A stretch of 20,190 nt of DNA, taken from a virus. The stretch lies in the IMG/VR virus record IMGVR_UViG_3300006165_001202, positions 1 through 20,190 of that record; one strand, 5' to 3'. Below the pieces are notes generated by a model. The model did not search any database, was not told the origin of the DNA, and was given only the letters and a program-made list of their open reading frames with translations. The translations under genes and the position numbers were made by a program. Below are positions 3,075 to 20,101 of the stretch, one piece after another; positions within the stretch are counted from its first letter, which is position 1, and each line of letters starts with the position of its first letter.

Positions 3075-3403
3075 AATATATAATTGATATAGATGGTACT
3101 ATTTGTAAAGAAGTTTTTCTTGCAGATGGTAAGAAAGACTATGCTAACCATATTCCATATATGGATCGTATTGCAAAAGTAAACAAACTACATGAAGCAG
3201 GTCATACTATCAAGTACATGACTGCACGTGGAATCACTAGTGGAATAGATTATTTTAAACTAACAAATAATCAGCTAGTAGAATGGGGTGCAAAGTTTGA
3301 TGAACTTGATGTAGGTAACAAACCCCATTACGATATATGGATTGATGACAAAGCATTTTGGAGTGAGAACTTCTTTAGAGAAACAGGTGAAACATATGAG
3401 TAA
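3071..3403 (+). CDS. HAD-superfamily phosphatase, capsule-biosynthesis type
   Basis: The 110-residue protein begins MKYIIDIDGTIC, the HAD motif I with nucleophile Asp6 and acid Asp8. Motif II is MTARG near residues 55-59, followed by a Lys in the NKPHYDIWIDDKA block that supplies motifs III and IV (paired Asp). There is no large cap domain, as in small phosphatases of sugar and capsule gene clusters. It probably removes phosphate from a small metabolite made by its operon partners. It is coupled at both ends: a 4-base overlap with the cytidylyltransferase and an 8-base overlap with the aldolase. Confidence 0.8.
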   Translation: MKYIIDIDGTICKEVFLADGKKDYANHIPYMDRIAKVNKLHEAGHTIKYMTARGITSGIDYFKLTNNQLVEWGAKFDELDVGNKPHYDIWIDDKAFWSENFFRETGETYE

Positions 3404-4190
3404 ATTTATAGCCGCAATGGACCACAGTGGTGGAAGCACAGGCGGAGTACTAGAACGTTACGAACAAGATTATACAGAAGATAATAAAATGGACCTTGTA
3501 CATCAAATGCGTATGCGTATGGTTAATAGTCCAGACTTTAACAGTAATAATATTTGGGCCTCAATACTTTATAAAGATTCAGTTGAACGAGGTTTATCTA
3601 TGATCCTACGTGCAAAAGGCATTGAACCATATCTTAAAATTGATAGTGGGTGTGAAGAAGATGGAACACTCAAACACTTTGATTTAGAAGAGATGTGTAA
3701 GTATGCACTTGAAATGCAATGTAGTGGTACTAAGATGCGTAGCATTATTAAAAGCGAAGAGATGATTGATGCAGTACTTAAACAACAATTTGGTATGGCT
3801 GCATATATTAGTAACAAAGGCCTTATGCCAATTGTAGAACCAGAAATTCCAATTGATCATCCAATGAAGCGTTCGTTAGAGATTATGCTTTTTGAACAGT
3901 TAAACAATCATCTACAAACATTAGATGGTAAGTGTATTCTAAAACTTACACTACCTGATATTAAAGAACTCTATAAACCATTGACAGCACATGAAAGTTG
4001 TAGTAGTATTGTAGCATTAAGTGGTGGATACACTACAGAAGAAGCATGCAAAAGACTAGCAAATAATCCTTCAATGGGTGCTAGCTTTAGTAGAGCATTA
4101 AGCGAGGGATTGTTCTATGGACAGACTGAGCCGGTATTTGACACACGAATAAGTGCAAATATTGATAACATTAAAAGGAGTTGTGAATGA
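3396..4190 (+). CDS. Class I fructose-bisphosphate aldolase
   Basis: The 264-residue protein matches the single-domain bacterial class I aldolase seen in Staphylococcus. Signature blocks are [23 protein letters not shown] (111-116), [17 protein letters not shown] with the Schiff-base Lys183, [10 protein letters not shown] and [12 protein letters not shown]. It cleaves or forms fructose 1,6-bisphosphate from dihydroxyacetone phosphate and glyceraldehyde 3-phosphate. ATG 3396 is preferred over an upstream ATG at 3342 because it starts the conserved domain and has AGGTGA at 3385-3390. It is about 30 residues shorter than the Staphylococcus enzyme, mostly at the N-terminus. It overlaps both neighbours. 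Confidence 0.9.
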
Positions 4191-5335
4191 GAATCGAAAC
4201 AGAACACAAGCTAGATTATAGCGATGTATTAATTAGACCAAAGCGTAGTACGTTAGGGTCGAGAAAAGACGTTGATTTACAACGTGGATTTACATTTAGA
4301 AACTATTTGGGAGCAAGGCCTTTAAATGAACCAGAAGACTACAGCGGTATTCCTATTATGGCTTCTAACATGGATGGAGTTGGTACATTTGAAATGGCAG
4401 ACACACTTGCTAAACAAAGTATCTTCACTTGCTTAGTTAAAACATACAGCGTAGAAGAACTTGTTGAATTCTTCAATACGGATAATGAGTCTCGCACAGA
4501 TAATGTTGCTATTAGTATTGGCATCATGGAAAAGGATCAACAGAAATTTAGTGACGTATATGAACAAGTTGGTGCCCGTATCAAGTATGTTTGTATTGAT
4601 GTAGCAAATGGATATAGTGAACGATTTAGTAACTTTGTTAGAAAGTTTAGAAAACAATATCCATACGTAGTAATTATTGCTGGTAATGTAGTAACAGGCG
4701 AAATGACAGAGGAGTTAATTCTTAATGGAGCAGACATTGTTAAAGTTGGAATCGGACCAGGTTCCGTGTGTACAACAAGAATCCAAACAGGTGTCGGATA
4801 CCCACAGCTATCTGCAGTTATTGAATGTGCAGATGCGGCACATGGACTTGGTGGACATATTATCGCTGATGGGGGTTGCAATTGTCCTGGTGACGTGGCT
4901 AAGGCATTCGCTGGCGGTGCAGATTTTGTAATGCTTGGCGGAATGCTAGCAGGACATGATGAAGGCGGTGGAAAAACTATTCTTAAACATTATGAGACAA
5001 ATGAACTTGTATATGAAATAGGTAGTCACTTGGATAAGCATACAAAGAAAATTGAAACAAAAGAGTTTGTAGCATTCTACGGAATGAGTTCAAATGCGGC
5101 AAACACAAAGCACTTCGGAGGATTGAAAGATTATAGATCAAGCGAAGGACGTGAAGTACTTGTTCCTTATCGTGGAACAGTAGAAAATACTATACAAAAT
5201 ATATTAGGCGGAATACGTAGTACATGCACATACGCAGGTGCAAACCGTCTTAAATACCTAAATAAATGCACTACATTTATTATGGCTAACAAACAGTACA
5301 ACGCAGTATATGAAGCGACTACAACGAAGATTTAG
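4187..5335 (+). CDS. guaC: GMP reductase
   Basis: This 382-residue protein is GMP reductase rather than IMP dehydrogenase: it starts [18 protein letters not shown], lacks CBS domains, and keeps [19 protein letters not shown] and [11 protein letters not shown] with catalytic Cys195 and nearby threonines. [15 protein letters not shown] and [12 protein letters not shown] follow. The reaction is GMP + NADPH to IMP + NH3 + NADP. It is about 35 residues longer than E. coli GuaC, with inserts near residues 42-51 and near 265-295 before FYGMSS. It overlaps the aldolase by 4 bases and ends the operon. It may rebalance purines scavenged from host RNA and DNA. Confidence 0.92.
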
Positions 5336-8479: not shown

Positions 8480-8487
8480 GATAAATA
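8480..8487 (+). promoter_or_regulatory. Late promoter box GATAAATA upstream of the tmRNA gene
   Basis: A plus-strand GATAAATA lies just before the TTGACA of the tmRNA promoter. It would give a slightly longer tmRNA precursor than the box at 8513. Confidence 0.4.
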
Positions 8488-8489
8488 GG

Positions 8490-8520
8490 TTGACAGAAGA
8501 CACTACATAGTGTATAAATA
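8490..8520 (+). promoter_or_regulatory. Fused sigma70 and late promoter of the tmRNA gene
   Basis: TTGACA (8490-8495), a 17-base spacer and TATAAA (8513-8518) form a near-consensus sigma70 promoter. The same -10 bases extend to a perfect T4 late box TATAAATA (8513-8520). The tmRNA could thus be made by host holoenzyme early and by the phage-modified polymerase late. Confidence 0.7.
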
Positions 8521-8524
8521 TAAC

Positions 8525-8866
8525 TTGTAACGTTGAAACTTAATTGAACGCTAAACTGGACCTGGGGGCAGTACCCAGCAGCTCCACCATAAACACATCG
8601 CCGTGTGGACCGAAAGACGGATTCTATAGGCGTTTCGGCATATGTCGCAGTAGAATATTACGGTGTGTTTTTGATGGGGCTGATATAGGATCGACAGGTA
8701 GACTAGATAAGTGGAGTTATCCCGATGTAAGCTGGGTTAACGCGAACAAACTTTATAATTGCAAACGCAAATTATGAGCCAGAAATGGCAATAGCAGCCT
8801 AAATTAGGTATGTAGGGGTTTTGGTAACTTGGACCTGGCAACAGAATCAAGTTGCAAACTTCATGG
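8525..8866 (+). ncRNA. ssrA: Permuted two-piece tmRNA
   Basis: The gene is circularly permuted as in alphaproteobacteria. The acceptor piece comes first and ends CAGCTCC-A-CCA (8579-8589), with a CTGGG/CCCAG T-arm-like hairpin before it. An intervening segment (8590-8675) follows, then the coding piece from 8676 with the tmRNA 5' signature GGGGCTGATATAGGATCGAC. GGGGCTG (8676-8682) pairs over 7 bp with CAGCTCC (8579-8585), with one G-U pair. The tag frame is at 8761-8802; a CCTAAATTAGG hairpin holds its stop codon, as in helix 5 of other tmRNAs. The last clear element is a hairpin at 8826-8853. Exact outer ends and processing sites are not determined. It rescues stalled ribosomes with SmpB. 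Confidence 0.9.
8761..8802 (+). other. tmRNA proteolysis-tag reading frame
   Basis: The resume frame starts at GCA 8761 and reads ANANYEPEMAIAA before TAA, 13 residues plus the alanine charged on the tmRNA. Alphaproteobacterial tags such as AANDNFAEEFAVAA share the N.N(Y/F) start and the hydrophobic-AA end that ClpX recognises. Here the end is MAIAA rather than LAA or VAA. Interior EPEM is unlike the usual AEEF. Confidence 0.88.
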
Positions 8867-8900
8867 ACATAAGTTCATGATTATCTTAAACAGGAATAAT

Positions 8901-10049: not shown

Positions 10050-11012
10050 ATGTTTAAAGGAAAATACAACGAACTAGTAAGTCATCAAACTATGATTCAA
10101 GATGAAACTAGAACACAAGGTTATATGGAAGCTATTGAAAAAGCAGTTGATCCAGGAGACACTGTTATTGATTTTGGCAGTGGCACAGGAATATTAGCTA
10201 TTAAAGCCGCTAAGTGTGGAGCAAATAAAGTTTGGGCAATCGAGCGTAATCCTGTTACAGCTATGATACTCAGAAAAAACATATTATCTAATAATGTAGA
10301 TGTTGAAGTATTTGAAGGAACTGCTGCTGAATTTATAATAATGCATCATGGCGAATTTAAAGCAGATGTTGTTATTAGTGAATGTATAGGAGATCACATA
10401 TTTGAAAATACTATGGTCTTAGATTTCCACGAAATATGCAAACACTTTTATGCAACAAAATGCATACCTTCAAACTTTAAATTATATTGTCATGGCGAAT
10501 ACATTACTAGAAAGCAAGATAAATTTGATAATGCAAAAGACAATTTAGCAAAACATGATATTAATTTAGAAATGTTAAACGAAGAATTGTTTCCAAATGC
10601 ATTTTTAGATACATGCTATTTTGAAAATAATGATGATAATTTAGATTATTATTTTAAGTTTATTCCAAGTGATAAAGAACATTTACTATTTGAATGGAAT
10701 AATTCAGCTACATTGTTAAATTATGAAGACAATGATGAAATTATTAAAACTAGTTTTACTATGGACAAGTTACCTAATGCAGGTGACTACTTAATGTTGT
10801 ATTGGGATATTGATTTATTTAAAGGTACAATGTTTACAAATAGGCCTAGTAGAAAGAGTACTAAAAATCATTCATATTTTCAACGAACAATCAACGTAAG
10901 TAGTTATGTAATTCCAGAGTTCAACTTAGGTATTAACATACTATTTGATAAAATAGCAAATGAAGATACTCCTTGTAATAATATTAAACTATTTGCCAAG
11001 GAAACAACTTAG
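10050..11012 (+). CDS. PRMT-like SAM-dependent methyltransferase
   Basis: The 320-residue protein has a class I methyltransferase fold with features of protein arginine methyltransferases. DETRTQGYMEAIE (18-30) matches the D..RT..Y region before motif I, VIDFGSGTGIL (39-49) binds SAM, and E65 in VWAIERN would hold the ribose. SECIGDHIFEN (110-120) is placed like the double-E loop, with E111 and E119. The C-terminal part looks like the PRMT beta-barrel and has NHSYFQ near residue 277, where PRMTs have a THW loop. Substrates could be host or phage proteins. It overlaps the convergent gene by 29 bases at its 3' end. Confidence 0.78.
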   Translation: MFKGKYNELVSHQTMIQDETRTQGYMEAIEKAVDPGDTVIDFGSGTGILAIKAAKCGANKVWAIERNPVTAMILRKNILSNNVDVEVFEGTAAEFIIMHHGEFKADVVISECIGDHIFENTMVLDFHEICKHFYATKCIPSNFKLYCHGEYITRKQDKFDNAKDNLAKHDINLEMLNEELFPNAFLDTCYFENNDDNLDYYFKFIPSDKEHLLFEWNNSATLLNYEDNDEIIKTSFTMDKLPNAGDYLMLYWDIDLFKGTMFTNRPSRKSTKNHSYFQRTINVSSYVIPEFNLGINILFDKIANEDTPCNNIKLFAKETT

Positions 11013-12360
11013 GCAACCATTGTTGATTCTTATGCTCATTCATTTCATTGATTACAAAGCCTTTTGCTATAATCTTATTACCATACCCAGCAATCCAATC
11101 TATGTAACTACGTTCGCATCTTAGTCTAACATTCTTACTATACAACATAGCGTTAACTTCGTAATTAAATGCATTACTAACGTCAATGAATACTTTCTCA
11201 TTCTCAGTACTTTTATTAACAGCGTCATCTAGTTCAGCTTTCATTCTGCTCATCCGCATTACATCAATGCGTTTGAATACTACACCAAATGATTGTGCTT
11301 CTTTTCTCCACCAATCAATAAATGGTTGTCCTAATTTAAGTAAGTATTCGTCCATTTGATCTAATCCATCTGAAGCCGCAAAGTAAGGCCTAGACATTGG
11401 ATTATCTGCTAAGTAAGAATTAACAAATTGTTTCCAGTTTGTACCATCCCAATTTTTAAAGACATACCAACACATTTCTAATGCTCTAGAATCTGCATCA
11501 AAGCATGTTATCTCGCCACCTGGTCTTAAATTTTGAATATATGCATTTGCTATTGGACTTAATCCTCCACATGTACTGAATATACTACTGCACACTTGAT
11601 CTTTAATTTCTAAATCTAAGTCTTCTGTGTTAGAACAATACCAACGTGATACCCATGTTTCGCTGCCCAATAGATATAACTTTTCATAGTGATCGTTCAT
11701 CTCAGGATAACAGTATTCTTTTAAACTACGTAAATGTTCATTCCAAATGCCTACTTTTTTACCTTGTGATAATGCAGCATCTAATAGTTTCCAGCCAGTG
11801 CGTGTGTACGTTGCAGAAACTGTTTCGTCTGTAGCTTTAATCCAGTCTGGGTTATATGTGTCACTTTTATCGCTACCTAAAGAATCTGTACTTCTTTCTA
11901 CCTTAGTAGCAGTATATGGATTTGCAATATCACTACGATCACCAAAGTCTGGCTTTCCTGCTTCCTCCCACCATTTCAAGTCAATATACATTGCTTGTGG
12001 ATGTATTTGCCACCAAGCATCTTCGTTTGTTCTATCTAATATGTGTCCAACTATAACACAGTCTTTGTATTGACCTTTCCAATACGGTTGTGTTTGTTCA
12101 ATAAAGTCTGATTGTAACACTATGCCTTGCTTTAACATTAGTATTGATTTAAGTCCAACATGTAATCCTTGTTCACATAAGTCCATAAATGTTGCAGAAG
12201 ATAGTTGAGGTATTTTTCTGTATTTCATACTGTAAAAGTCTAGCATGTTTTGTGTAATGCCTTGTGTAGACAGTTCTTTAATTTGATTGTTCAGCAACCA
12301 ACCTATCGCACAGCCTTCTGGTAGTTTGTCAGCGGTGTGAGGTATTTTATAATTTATCAT
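10984..12360 (-). CDS. Large orphan protein with a Rossmann/methyltransferase-like region
   Basis: The 458-residue protein is not recognised. Around residues 255-300, SSIFSTCGGLSPIANAYI followed by GGEITCFDADSRALEMCWYVF looks like a Rossmann SAM-binding region (glycine-rich loop, then an acidic strand end FDAD). The N-terminal half is rich in Trp and charged residues and contains WWQIHPQAMYIDLKWWEEAG. No signal peptide or membrane helix is apparent. AAGGA lies 6 bases before the ATG. It is alone on the minus strand between two plus-strand units, and no clear minus-strand promoter was found. Confidence 0.8.
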   Translation of the reverse strand: MINYKIPHTADKLPEGCAIGWLLNNQIKELSTQGITQNMLDFYSMKYRKIPQLSSATFMDLCEQGLHVGLKSILMLKQGIVLQSDFIEQTQPYWKGQYKDCVIVGHILDRTNEDAWWQIHPQAMYIDLKWWEEAGKPDFGDRSDIANPYTATKVERSTDSLGSDKSDTYNPDWIKATDETVSATYTRTGWKLLDAALSQGKKVGIWNEHLRSLKEYCYPEMNDHYEKLYLLGSETWVSRWYCSNTEDLDLEIKDQVCSSIFSTCGGLSPIANAYIQNLRPGGEITCFDADSRALEMCWYVFKNWDGTNWKQFVNSYLADNPMSRPYFAASDGLDQMDEYLLKLGQPFIDWWRKEAQSFGVVFKRIDVMRMSRMKAELDDAVNKSTENEKVFIDVSNAFNYEVNAMLYSKNVRLRCERSYIDWIAGYGNKIIAKGFVINEMNEHKNQQWLPKLFPWQIV

Positions 12361-15113: not shown

Positions 15114-15941
15114 ATGAATTTTGATTTTACAGTAGATCAGGTAGCAGAGCTTTTGCCACGTGTAGATGCCAGTGAATGGTTTGATGCAATGAACAGAGTT
15201 TTGCCAAAATGGAAGATTGATAGTGTTAATAGGGTTGCGGGTTTCGTAGCACAAACAGCACATGAGTCTGCCGGTTATACGGTACTAACTGAAAATCTAA
15301 ATTACAGTGCAACAGCATTGAATAAGATTTTTCCGAAATACTTTGAACGTGCTGGCAGAAATGCCAGTGATTATCACAGACAACCAGAAAAGATTGCTAA
15401 CGTAATTTATGCTAATCGTATGGATAATGGTGATACTAGTAGTGGGGATGGATGGCGCTTTCGAGGTGGCGGAATTCTTCAACTAACTGGTAGACACAAT
15501 TATACACAGTTTAGTCAACAAGAAGGTATGACAGCGGAAGATGCTACAACATTTGTCCGTTCTCCTATTGGAGCGTTAGCTAGTGCTTGCTGGTTCTGGG
15601 ATACAAATGACATTAATGATTATTGCGACAAACAAGACATTGTTGGAATGACTAAACGCATTAATGGCGGAACTATCGGTCTAGAAGATCGCAAAAAACA
15701 TTATGAACATGCTTTAGAAGTACTTGGTGGACATTACACTCCATCAGTAACTTATGAAACAGTTCGTATTGGATCTCGTGGAGTAACTGTAAAGAGATTA
15801 CAGGAATCCCTAAAACTTTCTGCAGATGGCATCTTTGGTGCTGGAACAGAAAGAGCACTTAAAGAATGGCAAAGTAAGAATAACTGCACTCCTGACGGAA
15901 TTGCAGGCCCTCAAACTTTAGGACGCATATTCAGTGCATAA
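15114..15941 (+). CDS. Endolysin: GH19 chitinase-like domain plus peptidoglycan-binding domain
   Basis: The 275-residue protein has a GH19-type muramidase/chitinase domain (about 1-205) with general acid Glu51 in AHESAGY, second Glu60 in TENLNYSA, and the FRGGGILQLTGRHNYTQF block. A C-terminal PG_binding_1 domain (about 212-275) shows RIGSRGVTVKRLQESL, ADGIFGAGTERALKEWQ and PDGIAGPQTLG. It should cleave the peptidoglycan glycan strands at lysis. No signal peptide is present, so it needs a holin. It follows the small membrane protein closely and its ATG overlaps a weak GTAGGT site. Confidence 0.92.
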   Translation: MNFDFTVDQVAELLPRVDASEWFDAMNRVLPKWKIDSVNRVAGFVAQTAHESAGYTVLTENLNYSATALNKIFPKYFERAGRNASDYHRQPEKIANVIYANRMDNGDTSSGDGWRFRGGGILQLTGRHNYTQFSQQEGMTAEDATTFVRSPIGALASACWFWDTNDINDYCDKQDIVGMTKRINGGTIGLEDRKKHYEHALEVLGGHYTPSVTYETVRIGSRGVTVKRLQESLKLSADGIFGAGTERALKEWQSKNNCTPDGIAGPQTLGRIFSA

Positions 15942-15967: not shown

Positions 15968-17155
15968 TTGACAGTCAATAAACATAGCGACAGTTGGTGT
16001 CCACTACCCTTTAATGCTATTAGCTTTCATCCTACTGGTAAACTGACTCGTTGTATGATGAGTGATACACCCATGGGAGAAAGTTATGATAGTGCAGAAA
16101 TGCAACATCTACGACAAGATATGCTTGACGGTAAATGGGACAAAGAAGGGTGCATGAGTTGTTGGAAAAAAGAAGAACAGGGCAACATAAGCCAAAGACA
16201 AAAATGGTTACAGCGTAACCCAAAAGACTTTAAGAATCAAGACGGGTATAACATGCCACTTGTTAAAGGAAACCCAGTAAATCACATGTTTGTTAATTAC
16301 AGTAATATATGTAATTTTAAATGTAGAATGTGTGGACCTAATTTTAGTAACAGTCTTATTCCAGAACATAAACATTTGCATGCAATTGGACTGGGAAAAA
16401 AAGTAAAAACAGAAACTATTAAAAACAGAAACTTTATTAATGATTATCTGAGAAAAAATGTAAACAGTTTAAAAGACGTAAGCAGTATTTGGATTACAGG
16501 TGGAGAACCTTTAATGGATAATAGTTGCTACGAGCTAATGGATATATTAAATGAGTACAACAGATCTTTTGATACTGATATGGTTATCACTACAAACGGA
16601 TCTAAAGTTGATTTAAATAAATTACAAGAGTTTGAGAACTTAAAGTTCTTTGAACTTGATCTAAGTATTGATGCACCTAACACTATGTTTGAATATATGC
16701 GTAGTGCAGGAATATACACATGGAAAGAAATGAGTAGCCTTATTGATGATTTAACACATTTTAAGAAAGAGAACAGTAGTTGGTTCCATCTGTGTTTTAA
16801 TTCAAGTATACAAGCATTAAACTTTGATACAGTATTAGAGTTTGACAAATTATGTCGTGATGCAGGCGCCCTAAATAATACTAGGATGCTAGTATTTCCA
16901 GAACACTTTAGATTAGATGTGTTACCCTTGGAAATGCGACAAGCAGAATACAACAAGATTAAAGATTACACACCTGCTCAATACGATCCAAGGTTTAAAC
17001 GTACTTTTGATGATATACTCAAAAGCATGTTGACGCCACAAGCAGATAGTGTTATAATAAACAAGTTTAAAGAGTTCACATTAGCACAGGATAAGTATAG
17101 AAATATGCATATAAAAGATTATCATGTACAGCTAAGTGAATTTATATACAATTGA
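15968..17155 (+). CDS. Twitch-type radical SAM protein, first copy
   Basis: The 395-residue protein has the radical SAM CxxxCxxC motif at Cys115, Cys119 and Cys122 (NICNFKCRMC), then WITGGEPLMDN, TTNGSK and a TIM-barrel-like remainder. Before the barrel, Cys11, Cys29 and the GCMSC pair Cys62/Cys65 form an N-terminal auxiliary cluster site, as in phage proteins called twitch-domain radical SAM proteins. Substrate unknown. The only usable start is TTG 15968: a stop lies 6 codons upstream and the first ATG is past Cys29. A GTGGTGG stretch precedes it. The second copy follows after 7 bases. Confidence 0.88.
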   Translation: MTVNKHSDSWCPLPFNAISFHPTGKLTRCMMSDTPMGESYDSAEMQHLRQDMLDGKWDKEGCMSCWKKEEQGNISQRQKWLQRNPKDFKNQDGYNMPLVKGNPVNHMFVNYSNICNFKCRMCGPNFSNSLIPEHKHLHAIGLGKKVKTETIKNRNFINDYLRKNVNSLKDVSSIWITGGEPLMDNSCYELMDILNEYNRSFDTDMVITTNGSKVDLNKLQEFENLKFFELDLSIDAPNTMFEYMRSAGIYTWKEMSSLIDDLTHFKKENSSWFHLCFNSSIQALNFDTVLEFDKLCRDAGALNNTRMLVFPEHFRLDVLPLEMRQAEYNKIKDYTPAQYDPRFKRTFDDILKSMLTPQADSVIINKFKEFTLAQDKYRNMHIKDYHVQLSEFIYN

Positions 17156-17162
17156 GGAATAG

Positions 17163-18470
17163 ATGAAAAGAGACGGCGCCCCGAATAAGTTTTTTATACC
17201 AGCAGATCAAATTGAAACTAAAGTAGTAGAAACTGACAAATGGAACAACTTACACAGTAAGAGTTGGTGTCCAGTTCCGTTTAATACTATTAGTTGGCAC
17301 CCTAGTGGTGTTGTCAGTCGTTGTATGATGAGTGATGACGACATGGGTACACATCATGATTCAGATGAGATGCAAAATCTACGAAAGAATATGCTTGATG
17401 GTAAATGGGATACATTTGGATGTACTAACTGTTTAACTAAAGAAAAGCAAGGAGCTCGTAGTCAACGAATGAACTGGCTACATCATGACTTCCGTGAACA
17501 ATTAGGCAATCCAGATCCATACAACACTCCACTGTTAAAAGGAAACGACATAAGCCACTTGTTCGTTAACTTTAGTAACGTGTGTAACTTTAAATGTAGA
17601 ATGTGTAGTTCTAACTATAGTAACAGTTTAATTCCAGAAGCAAAGCATATGGAACCTTTGTTTCCTAGAGAATACAGAAAAGTAGAAACATCAAATCCAA
17701 AGAATTTTAATAATATTAATGAATACTTAGAAGCTAATCCATCAGTACTTAAAGGTATTAGAAGTATATGGATGACAGGTGGCGAACCATTTATGGACAA
17801 CAGCCCATACAAGCTAATGGAACTTATTGAGCAACATGGACATCCAGAACTAATTAAAATGGTTGTTACAACTAACGGTTCAAGATTAGATGTATCAAAG
17901 CTTCACAAATTTAAAAAACTTAAAAAACTTACACTTGATATTAGTATTGATGCAGTAGGTCCAATGTTTGAATACATGCGTAGTAATGGTGTGTTCTCAT
18001 GGAGCCAAATGGAAACAAAAATTGGAGAGTTAAAAACCTTTGCTGATGATCACAGAGCTAAAGAGAAACGTGATGATTGGTTCAGTTTTCAAATCAATAG
18101 TAGTTACCAAATGTTTAACTACGATAACATGCCAGAGTTTTTTCAATTCATATACGACATGCGTTGCGACAGTAATGTACGATTAGTTATTTTTCCTGAA
18201 CATTTACGTGCAGGAAACTTACCAGAGTCTTACAAAAAACAAGCACTAAAAGATATGGATATGATTGAAGTACGTTATGGAAATAAAAACGTACACAATA
18301 TTAAAACACTTGAAGATATTAGAAAAGCACTTTATAAACAAGACACAAAAATAGAAGTGTTTAAAACATTAGTAAAAGAACAAGATAAATTTAGAGGTAC
18401 ATACTTGTATGACTATCATCCACATTTGGGTGAGATAATTTATGGCGATATACAACCAGGACTATTTTAA
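17163..18470 (+). CDS. Twitch-type radical SAM protein, second copy
   Basis: The 435-residue protein is a tandem paralogue of its neighbour. Shared blocks include SWCPVPFNTISWHPSG, RCMMSDDDMG, MLDGKWDTFGCTNC, NFSNVCNFKCRMC (the CxxxCxxC), WMTGGEPFMDNSPY and TTNGSRLD. All auxiliary and radical SAM cysteines are kept in both copies. It carries about 25 extra N-terminal residues (PNKFFIPADQIETKVVETDK). GAGGAA precedes the ATG. The following gene starts at the last base of its stop codon. Retention of both copies suggests distinct substrates or a heterodimer. Confidence 0.9.
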   Translation: MKRDGAPNKFFIPADQIETKVVETDKWNNLHSKSWCPVPFNTISWHPSGVVSRCMMSDDDMGTHHDSDEMQNLRKNMLDGKWDTFGCTNCLTKEKQGARSQRMNWLHHDFREQLGNPDPYNTPLLKGNDISHLFVNFSNVCNFKCRMCSSNYSNSLIPEAKHMEPLFPREYRKVETSNPKNFNNINEYLEANPSVLKGIRSIWMTGGEPFMDNSPYKLMELIEQHGHPELIKMVVTTNGSRLDVSKLHKFKKLKKLTLDISIDAVGPMFEYMRSNGVFSWSQMETKIGELKTFADDHRAKEKRDDWFSFQINSSYQMFNYDNMPEFFQFIYDMRCDSNVRLVIFPEHLRAGNLPESYKKQALKDMDMIEVRYGNKNVHNIKTLEDIRKALYKQDTKIEVFKTLVKEQDKFRGTYLYDYHPHLGEIIYGDIQPGLF

Positions 18471-19264
18471 TGTTACCATTACCTCATAAAGGTCCATTAC
18501 CAAGACCAGATTATAAATCATACAGTATGATATTCCCACAAGGATTGCCGGGTGAATTTATTTCATTTTTTATTCAACTGCATGAAGGATTCCCAAGAAT
18601 ACAAGATATGGATATGAGGTACACACCAGATGATCCATATGATGAAGCGAATGATGGTAAAGATCCAATAGGGCATCAAGGCAGATCGTGGAATCCAGAA
18701 GGAATAAAACACAGCAACAAGTTTGGAGACACATGGGAAACGCCAGTAACTGAATTTAAAGAATCAATTAATGCTATGCTAGAAACAGGATACGGTGATT
18801 TTACAAAGATGGTTTTTAAAATTAATCCATTACATTTTATAAATTATGCATGGGATAGATTTGATCTAGTACACACACATGATACAAAAATTGTACAACA
18901 TATCGTACTTGAATGTAAAGATTTAGATATTAGGGATATGATTGAAGTTGCCAATCCTATAAAAATAAAATGGGATTATACAATTACTCCAAGTAAAGCA
19001 TTTAGAGAAGGCAGGCGAGACCTCGTAACAGCAGAGTACATAGGTCCTGTGTTTGCTAATTTCCAAGAATCATACGTGCATTATAAACAGCTAATTGAAG
19101 AAAGAGGAGTTAAAGTAGACAAGATTGATGTTGGTAACTTACTTCAACGTGAACCATACGAATACTACAGACTACTAAAAATTATTGATTCTCAACCACT
19201 TCCAAATTGGCGTAAAATAATTAAAGATTATACAGATCTAGCCTTTATGGAATGTTTCGATTGA
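18470..19264 (+). CDS. Unrecognised protein coupled to the radical SAM pair
   Basis: The 264-residue soluble protein starts in a TAATG overlap with the second radical SAM gene. The N-terminus SYSMIFPQGLPGEFISFFIQ puts a glycine-proline turn after a beta strand, a little like a sulfotransferase phosphate-binding loop, and the C-terminal EYYRLLKIIDSQPLPNWRKI resembles the end of phage sulfotransferase-like proteins. This comparison is weak and the middle is unfamiliar. As third gene of the unit it may act on the radical SAM product. Its stop codon lies inside the next promoter. Confidence 0.78.
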   Translation: MLPLPHKGPLPRPDYKSYSMIFPQGLPGEFISFFIQLHEGFPRIQDMDMRYTPDDPYDEANDGKDPIGHQGRSWNPEGIKHSNKFGDTWETPVTEFKESINAMLETGYGDFTKMVFKINPLHFINYAWDRFDLVHTHDTKIVQHIVLECKDLDIRDMIEVANPIKIKWDYTITPSKAFREGRRDLVTAEYIGPVFANFQESYVHYKQLIEERGVKVDKIDVGNLLQREPYEYYRLLKIIDSQPLPNWRKIIKDYTDLAFMECFD

Positions 19265-19289
19265 CAAACATGTAAAAATGTACTATAAT
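19261..19289 (+). promoter_or_regulatory. Perfect-consensus sigma70 promoter
   Basis: TTGACA (19261-19266), a 17-base spacer and TATAAT (19284-19289) match all consensus positions. The spacer holds ACAT...ATGT inverted half-sites. The -35 box overlaps the stop codon of the preceding gene. Confidence 0.85.
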
Positions 19290-19317
19290 ATATACTTAAT
19301 TGAATGGGAGTATATAC

Positions 19318-19758
19318 ATGACAATGCACTTAGTCGGTCCGTACATGACCACAACAAACTACAAACGTAAGAAAACTAAGAAAAAGCTAAGTCCTAATCA
19401 ACAGGAAAAGCTACGTATACAGTGGAAAGCACACAATAAAGATTGTCGTAAGCGACATATTCATTCAGCACAGTTTGCAGAATTAGAAGACTTTATTGCA
19501 TACGTAAATGGCACCTACAAAGCTCCTGTAAAGGCACACGTAGCAATGAAGCCATATCAACCCCCCAAAGTAAGAGATGAAAAACATTATCCAAGTTTAA
19601 GCAATAATATTGCAGGATTAACACCTCGTAAAGAAAGTATGCAATATACAGGCGAACGTAAGTTACTTGGAATTGCTACAATGCACAAAAGTAACATGGT
19701 TCCTATATTTGAGGACAACAAACATGAAGCAATTGAAATAGCACGAATGAGGCGATAA
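19318..19758 (+). CDS. Conserved T4-like phage protein of unknown function
   Basis: From ATG 19318 (GGGAG 7 bases upstream) the protein has 146 residues. An upstream in-frame TTG at 19300 is less likely. It begins MTMHLVGPYMTTTNYKRKK, has a very basic N-terminal third and ends with GERKLLGIATMHKSNMVPIF, then KHEAIEIARMRR. This LGIATMHKSN..P.F...EA..I..MRR ending is, from memory, widespread in T4-like cyanophages, which supports the phage assignment. Function unknown. Its stop codon overlaps the next ATG by one base. Confidence 0.85.
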   Translation: MTMHLVGPYMTTTNYKRKKTKKKLSPNQQEKLRIQWKAHNKDCRKRHIHSAQFAELEDFIAYVNGTYKAPVKAHVAMKPYQPPKVRDEKHYPSLSNNIAGLTPRKESMQYTGERKLLGIATMHKSNMVPIFEDNKHEAIEIARMRR

Positions 19759-20072: not shown

Positions 20073-20101
20073 TTGACAAGTAAGACGTCTTACTGTATAC
20101 T
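20073..20101 (+). promoter_or_regulatory. Sigma70 promoter with palindromic spacer
   Basis: TTGACA (20073-20078), a 17-base spacer and TATACT (20096-20101). The spacer contains the perfect 16-base palindrome AGTAAGACGTCTTACT (20079-20094), and TATACT-GTA-AGTATA (20096-20110) is a second inverted repeat over the -10 element. Both look like repressor-binding sites. Confidence 0.75.

Follow-up and report, generated by a model that had tools for sequence, protein, structure and literature searches.

Two paralogous N-terminal-twitch radical SAM genes and a coupled third gene: a candidate tailoring unit in a phage genome

Radical S-adenosylmethionine (SAM) genes have been described from marine T4-like phages. 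Nishimura and others (2017) report a 183-kb T4-like virus with 12 radical SAM genes and an A-type iron-sulphur (Fe-S) carrier as well as IscU in other viruses, and raised the carriage of Fe-S assembly genes by such phages in print (PMC5332604). Likewise, Zaragoza-Solas (2020) places radical SAM cassettes of pelagimyophages in a host-recognition cluster with tail fibre and glycosyltransferase genes (PMC7029224), phages from the Tasman Sea are enriched in radical SAM genes (PMC7150976), and further literature on the subject is found in PMC10783043 and PMC11002830. Here we describe three adjoining genes, A, B and C, in the complete IMG/VR virus entry IMGVR_UViG_3300006165_001202, a phage record of 20,190 bases which, at its full length, is called the window below. 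The phages of the published work are of the same kind, whereas the available text of PMC5332604 and PMC7029224 describes no paralogue order, no pair with a third gene and no ferredoxin, IscS, reductase or nucleosidase. A text search of PMC5332604 for IscS, ferredoxin, cysteine desulfurase and nucleosidase gave no occurrence of any of them. Our literature searches, outside of which most subscription papers and preprints lie and by which absence is unproven, gave no account of ordered arrays of the enzyme family treated here, of radical SAM proteins with an N-terminal twitch, of viral twitch domain-containing radical SAM proteins, or of phage radical SAM genes together with a ferredoxin-NADP reductase. 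The enzyme family is known; new are the pair with its dedicated third gene and its place within a little-described pattern of ordered arrays. Our reading, to which we give about an even chance, is that A-B-C is one tailoring unit, acting most probably on a sugar or glycan which the phage makes or alters.

A (15968..17155, + strand; 395 amino acids (aa), TTG start) and B (17163..18470, +; 435 aa) are both members of NCBIfam NF033640 (N_Twi_rSAM). They score 213.3 and 232.9 bits against a curated cut-off of 170 and match the model in length and motif order, and A also matches PF04055 (E 8e-12). The model names a subfamily and not a reaction, and the coupled gene C and a pair-specific tail of B lie outside it. 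The two proteins are 48% identical and have seven ligand cysteines in common. Four of these precede the radical SAM core, namely C11, C29, C62 and C65 of A (15998..16162, +) and C36, C54, C87 and C90 of B (17268..17432, +), and three belong to the motif CNFKCRMC (CX3CX2C), located by alignment and motif pattern at 16310..16333 (+; C115, C119, C122) in A and 17583..17606 (+; C141, C145, C148) in B. All seven columns are invariant in an alignment of 15 rows. Furthermore, a pattern search found both cysteine motifs in 350 of the 373 distinct radical SAM open reading frames (ORFs) from all loci gathered, some of the other 23 having start-codon or sequence problems. A preliminary description made without database searches had placed tandem twitch radical SAM proteins and a partner gene at 15968-19264, with every radical SAM and auxiliary cysteine kept in both paralogues, and it was borne out on both points, its coordinates being exact. 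Since the twitch-like cysteine spacing comes before the core, the auxiliary site is N-terminal and not C-terminal to it. Each protein is expected to hold two [4Fe-4S] clusters, one that binds SAM and one auxiliary cluster housed in a twitch-like domain at the N-terminus.

A and B are separated by 7 bases, and C (18470..19264, +; 264 aa) begins within the B stop codon, which it overlaps by 1 base. In five relatives A and B overlap by 8-11 bases and B and C by 13. The C-terminal tail of B (IQPGLF) is kept in the six tabulated pairs (as QPGLF, QPCLF, QLCLF or QQCLF) and is missing from single B-type proteins; part of this conservation may merely mirror the overlap with the start of C. The three genes would be translationally coupled. 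As neither Pfam nor NCBIfam has a match to C, the earlier claim of a coupled third gene without known family also stands.

The close clade comprises the window and 24 further records, found by searches with A, B and C and with alignments of them (records carry G numbers and loci L numbers in the following). An A+B pair is present in 8 of the 25 records. Seven of these continue downstream and all seven carry C, while the eighth (G007) ends inside B. The remaining 17 records have a single radical SAM gene at the locus, and C adjoins none of them. A profile of C gave strong matches (E < 1e-110) in six of the 24 records, and these are the very records that hold a complete pair; apart from distant paralogues, homologues of C are found only behind complete pairs, and neither pairs without C nor C without pairs were seen in the close-clade sample. 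A fixed third gene, as expected from the preliminary description, is therefore a property of the complete pairs and not of the singles. By raw count, most close relatives (17/25) hold a single paralogue and lack the third gene, an outcome which that description had regarded as speaking against its proposal.

The tree puts this count in another light. In 30 rows (L005, L010, L011, L013, L022 and L122 being omitted as copies or near-copies, and long branches being flagged by the program) the A proteins group with three singles (100/100) and the B proteins with two singles (100/100), and these two clades are sisters (100/99). The two intact paralogues hence go back to one old duplication, as had been suggested from the sequence. 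On the simplest reading, A and B were each lost at least once after the A/B duplication, and C is absent wherever this happened; the sampled singles L004, L006, L121, L009 and L012 are read by the tree as such losses within the pair clade. The remaining singles fall outside it, and six of them, which branch outside with support of 96/93, have a different partner, a 2-oxoglutarate (2OG)-oxygenase-like gene. This gene lies immediately downstream of the radical SAM gene in all six loci (the contig end cuts that of L029), and in L031 a 2OG-oxygenase-like domain is also fused to the radical SAM protein. Both histidines of the HxD...H motif are invariant and the aspartate is kept except in the fused L031 domain (HRN); the L027 gene itself has no Pfam match.

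It could be argued that A and B are redundant duplicates kept by drift and that C is an unrelated neighbour, since ten A/B-clade records survive with one copy only and singles outnumber pairs 17 to 8. However, both copies have retained all ligands over long branches, the pair is invariably accompanied by C, and the six tabulated pairs all retain the B tail and the overlap of B with C. We regard drift as very improbable and consider it likely that A, B and C are one unit.

C itself offers few clues to its role. The best PHROG hit had an E value of only 0.13, PDB sequences gave no credible match, and neither C nor two of its distant paralogues has a relative among cultured phages. Its structure model is poor (predicted local distance difference test, pLDDT, 56.9), and GTPase-like rows obtained with it (Foldseek and VIA, Z 5.6-6.9) were set aside as uninformative for that reason. 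C may conceivably be a sulfotransferase-like P-loop protein: by eye, its N-terminal GxPGxxxS and HxGxxW stretches resemble a phage protein (L156:245-922 / L167:1282-1986) which has at best a weak link to PF13469. When the C family was compared by hhalign with a sulfotransferase-like profile of two members, the probability was 0.1%, no better than for control clusters, and C has no Pfam sulfotransferase match. Iterated searches across the gathered loci recovered 15 distinct C-family proteins, the distant paralogues sitting elsewhere in the same phages. Two tandem C-like genes immediately precede a ferredoxin-NADP-reductase-like gene in G001, G002, G004 and G006, an arrangement seen for instance at L152:782-2192, L154:1563-3018 and L155:2332-3703, and in G015 a C-like gene and an A-type Fe-S carrier have between them a gene that looks MazG-like by eye. 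C hence belongs to a phage family recurring near redox and Fe-S genes.

A structure model of B (mean pLDDT 81.5, predicted template modelling score 0.83) matches radical SAM structures. The sugar-acting BlsE (Z 13.5) and DesII (Z 13.2), viperin (13.0) and anSME (12.9) are all tied, Foldseek gave viperin as best match (E 1.2e-6), and SkfB and SuiB were, like anSME, peptide- or protein-acting neighbours. With its neighbours tied, the fold alone cannot settle the substrate. Sugar-acting SPASM/twitch enzymes, of which SpeY and AbmM were among the Foldseek rows and BtrN is another example, resemble A and B in the radical SAM core and one predicted auxiliary cluster, and dehydrogenase or sugar chemistry would be possible. 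They differ in that the auxiliary cysteines of A and B are N-terminal to the core, and the identity in the Foldseek rows is just 15-21%.

The viperin match, the radical SAM core and fold shared with that family and the five tRNAs and transfer-messenger RNA (tmRNA) of the phage would fit a unit that modifies a nucleotide or nucleic acid, by viperin-like chemistry or DNA or tRNA hypermodification, for counter-defence or genome protection. We find this quite improbable, because A and B score only 36.1 and 37.3 bits against the NCBIfam viperin model NF038283 (cut-off 180) and possess an extra N-terminal four-cysteine domain, whereas viperin is not known to have such a twitch set. Moreover, the locus has no nucleotide-modifying neighbour, and the arrays described below keep glycan-type neighbours.

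A protein or peptide of phage or host, cross-linked, epimerised or oxidised in SPASM/twitch fashion, is likewise an unlikely substrate. It would agree with SkfB, SuiB and anSME as structural neighbours, with the 2OG-oxygenase-like partner in the sister clade and with Asp/Asn-hydroxylase-type genes in the arrays. The SPASM-domain maturases of ribosomally synthesised and post-translationally modified peptides, however, are unlike A and B, for which the Pfam scan reported no SPASM domain (PF13186) and which have no adjoining precursor gene. There is no small ORF for such a gene beside A, B and C or, as had been noted before, between them, the neighbours being an endolysin and a gene D, and at related loci the unit is not accompanied by any conserved peptide gene. 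A peptide substrate would also need many different enzymes in fixed order for peptides encoded elsewhere.

The preliminary description overlooked a wider picture, in that the window is a phage and tandem runs of N_Twi_rSAM genes are the rule in the surveyed phages. The survey kept the best 80 of at least 582 matches and is therefore not a random sample. Its 69 viral loci (L027-L095) were dereplicated to 58, and 45 of these have at least three radical SAM ORFs within at most ~14 kb. Among neighbouring same-strand genes, 141 of 184 are no more than 20 bases apart and 131 overlap. Single records hold up to 18 N_Twi_rSAM genes over the cut-off (G015, 184 kb), with 13 in G004 (205 kb) and 8 in G002 (222 kb), and 9 of the 24 close records have a second tandem pair at another site, although five of these carry only one gene at the focal site. 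When 301 proteins were clustered at 38% identity, a linkage on which the labels depend, recurring orders such as C-B-A-A-E emerged (cluster names, not the genes of the window, whose A and B enzymes both fall in cluster D). By hand count, with the kinship of these related phages ignored, clusters B, A and E stand in that order by first occurrence in 21 of the 25 viral loci holding all three. Arrays of at least eight N_Twi_rSAM genes are also present in Bdellovibrionota assemblies (L097, L111); the order in L111, which by eye has an Obg-like gene nearby, differs from the viral one. A-B-C is the small end of this widespread phage pattern of many N_Twi_rSAM enzymes lined up, often in conserved order.

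Some of the Bdellovibrionota arrays L097, L098 and L111 share 450-aa and oxygenase-like neighbours with phage arrays. In the window, a 458-aa protein (10984..12360, -) without family match has relatives within N_Twi_rSAM arrays of other phages and of a Bdellovibrionales contig (23-26% identity to L037, L041 and L098), and is a possible further member of the pathway.

Genes for NodU/CmcH-type carbamoyltransferase, GT7-type glycosyltransferase, UDP-sugar dehydrogenase and Asp/Asn-hydroxylase-type oxygenases neighbour the arrays, and at L126:4503-6293 a phosphomannomutase-like HAD domain (PF03332, 28.4 bits, cut-off 22.4) is naturally fused to an N_Twi_rSAM protein, which we take as a clue to the substrate. 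Together with the published location of phage radical SAM cassettes, these neighbours and this fusion favour a sugar. Of the tRNA, protein and surface-sugar substrates originally proposed, the surface sugar is thus the one to which the context points, and we put a sugar or glycan substrate at close to, but not above, an even chance.

Under this reading, A and B would be two specialised enzymes that abstract hydrogen atoms at related positions of one substrate, or a heterodimer, and by analogy with twitch dehydrogenases the auxiliary cluster may give or take an electron. C could be a dedicated partner required only with both enzymes, presenting the substrate or carrying out a transfer step on the product. 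Radical SAM enzymes come at a high cost and are sensitive to oxygen, yet this one family takes up as much as roughly one-tenth of a genome (18 genes of ~400 codons in 184 kb). Such costs, the large genome share and the kept order argue for a strongly selected product, which the virion or the infected cell would probably carry.

Certain genes of the related phages could supply such enzymes. Ferredoxin- or flavodoxin-NADP reductase serves to reduce radical SAM enzymes, and methylthioadenosine/S-adenosylhomocysteine (MTA/SAH) nucleosidases also cleave 5'-deoxyadenosine, a radical SAM by-product. G015 encodes IscS (745.9 bits, cut-off 548), IscU (210, cut-off 192.4), an ISC-type ferredoxin (172, cut-off 132.1) and an A-type carrier (69.5, cut-off 58.8), besides a ferredoxin-NADP-reductase-like gene (113.2, below the NF008178 cut-off of 390) and a relative of the MTA/SAH nucleosidases (97.5; cut-off of the best model 129). 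Its IscS (L183:4201-5415, -), ferredoxin (L189:2791-3132, -), IscU (L189:9204-9620, -) and A-type carrier (L151:2054-2440, -) amount to a near-complete core ISC set within 184 kb. Elsewhere the sets are partial. IscU was found in 13 of 45 records (12 of the 24 close records; none in the window), the A-type carrier in 5/44, a 2Fe-2S ferredoxin in 3/45, all of one lineage, PF00266 (IscS-type) in 2/45 and the nucleosidase in 3/31. The reductase-like gene (97-130 bits, again below 390) occurs in 12 of 44 records, that is, in 11 of 24 close records, including all seven of at least 80 kb, and in 1 of 20 distant array phages. These counts rule out that the phages generally have a self-contained Fe-S kit; the full kit, present in G015 only, is a trait of one lineage and not of the group.

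Several observations weigh against a sugar-tailoring unit. The literature searches gave no substrate or activity for any N_Twi_rSAM protein. The focal locus adjoins an endolysin and lies outside any glycan island, and the glycan context comes from array members that are only ~22-35% identical. The structural neighbours are tied among sugar, nucleotide, peptide and protein substrates, and C yields neither a usable model nor a family. The contrast of seven pairs with 17 singles rests on about four pair and about four single lineages inside the A/B clade, which are not independent. Finally, four of the six other C-bearing records lack IscU, so the unit does not depend on an Fe-S kit.

A broader speculation, which we consider possible yet doubtful, is that A-B-C is a branch of a phage-borne radical SAM assembly line. 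Ordered N-twitch enzymes would each perform one step on a common glycan-like product and move between marine T4-like phages and Bdellovibrionota, with some phages themselves encoding IscS, IscU, an A-type carrier and an ISC ferredoxin for Fe-S assembly, a ferredoxin-NADP reductase to supply electrons and a nucleosidase to clear away 5'-deoxyadenosine. As an all-or-none unit of two enzymes and a partner that can be co-expressed, A-B-C is the smallest handle on this pattern. If the sugar-tailoring reading is true, it would provide a defined reaction for a large enzyme family and help explain the Fe-S assembly genes of phages.

As is usual for related loci, the unit stands between a lysis-type gene to its left and gene D to its right. 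The endolysin directly upstream of A (15114..15941, +; phrog_181, E 5e-72) is also upstream in L001, L004, L006, L007, L012, L015 and L121, and the conserved gene D (19300..19758, +; phrog_27048, E 3.5e-13), which lies outside the unit, is the right-hand neighbour in almost every related locus. A sigma-70-like consensus promoter (TTGACA-17-TATAAT, 19261..19289, +; 12/12 matches) at the end of C and ahead of the following gene likely marks the 3' edge of the unit, although a consensus match is not proof and the overall number of promoter-like sites does not exceed that in shuffled sequences. A second promoter-like site (20073-20101, +; 11/12) precedes a HAD-like gene at the end of the window.

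The carrier appears to be a T4-like marine phage. Its close relative G002 (222 kb), which also has the A-B-C unit, encodes a T4-type Gp23 capsid protein, and an origin in marine surface water is suggested by the relatives. Among cultured phages the nearest to A are three Vibrio phages at 22-24% identity, none of them close. Besides the endolysin, the protein genes of the window include a DNA-ligase-like gene, and its RNA genes are five tRNAs and a permuted alpha-type tmRNA (8486-8893, +; RF04321 106.4 bits, RF01849 99.3 bits; ARAGORN tag ANYEPEMAIAA). A permuted tmRNA has already been described for a marine methylophage and its relatives (PMC9004378). The window further encodes a GMP reductase (4187-5335, +; 523 bits against NF003470, cut-off 397), a purine-salvage gene of the phage, immediately preceded by a class-I fructose-bisphosphate aldolase-like gene (3342-4190, +; PF00274, E 1.6e-7, above cut-off).

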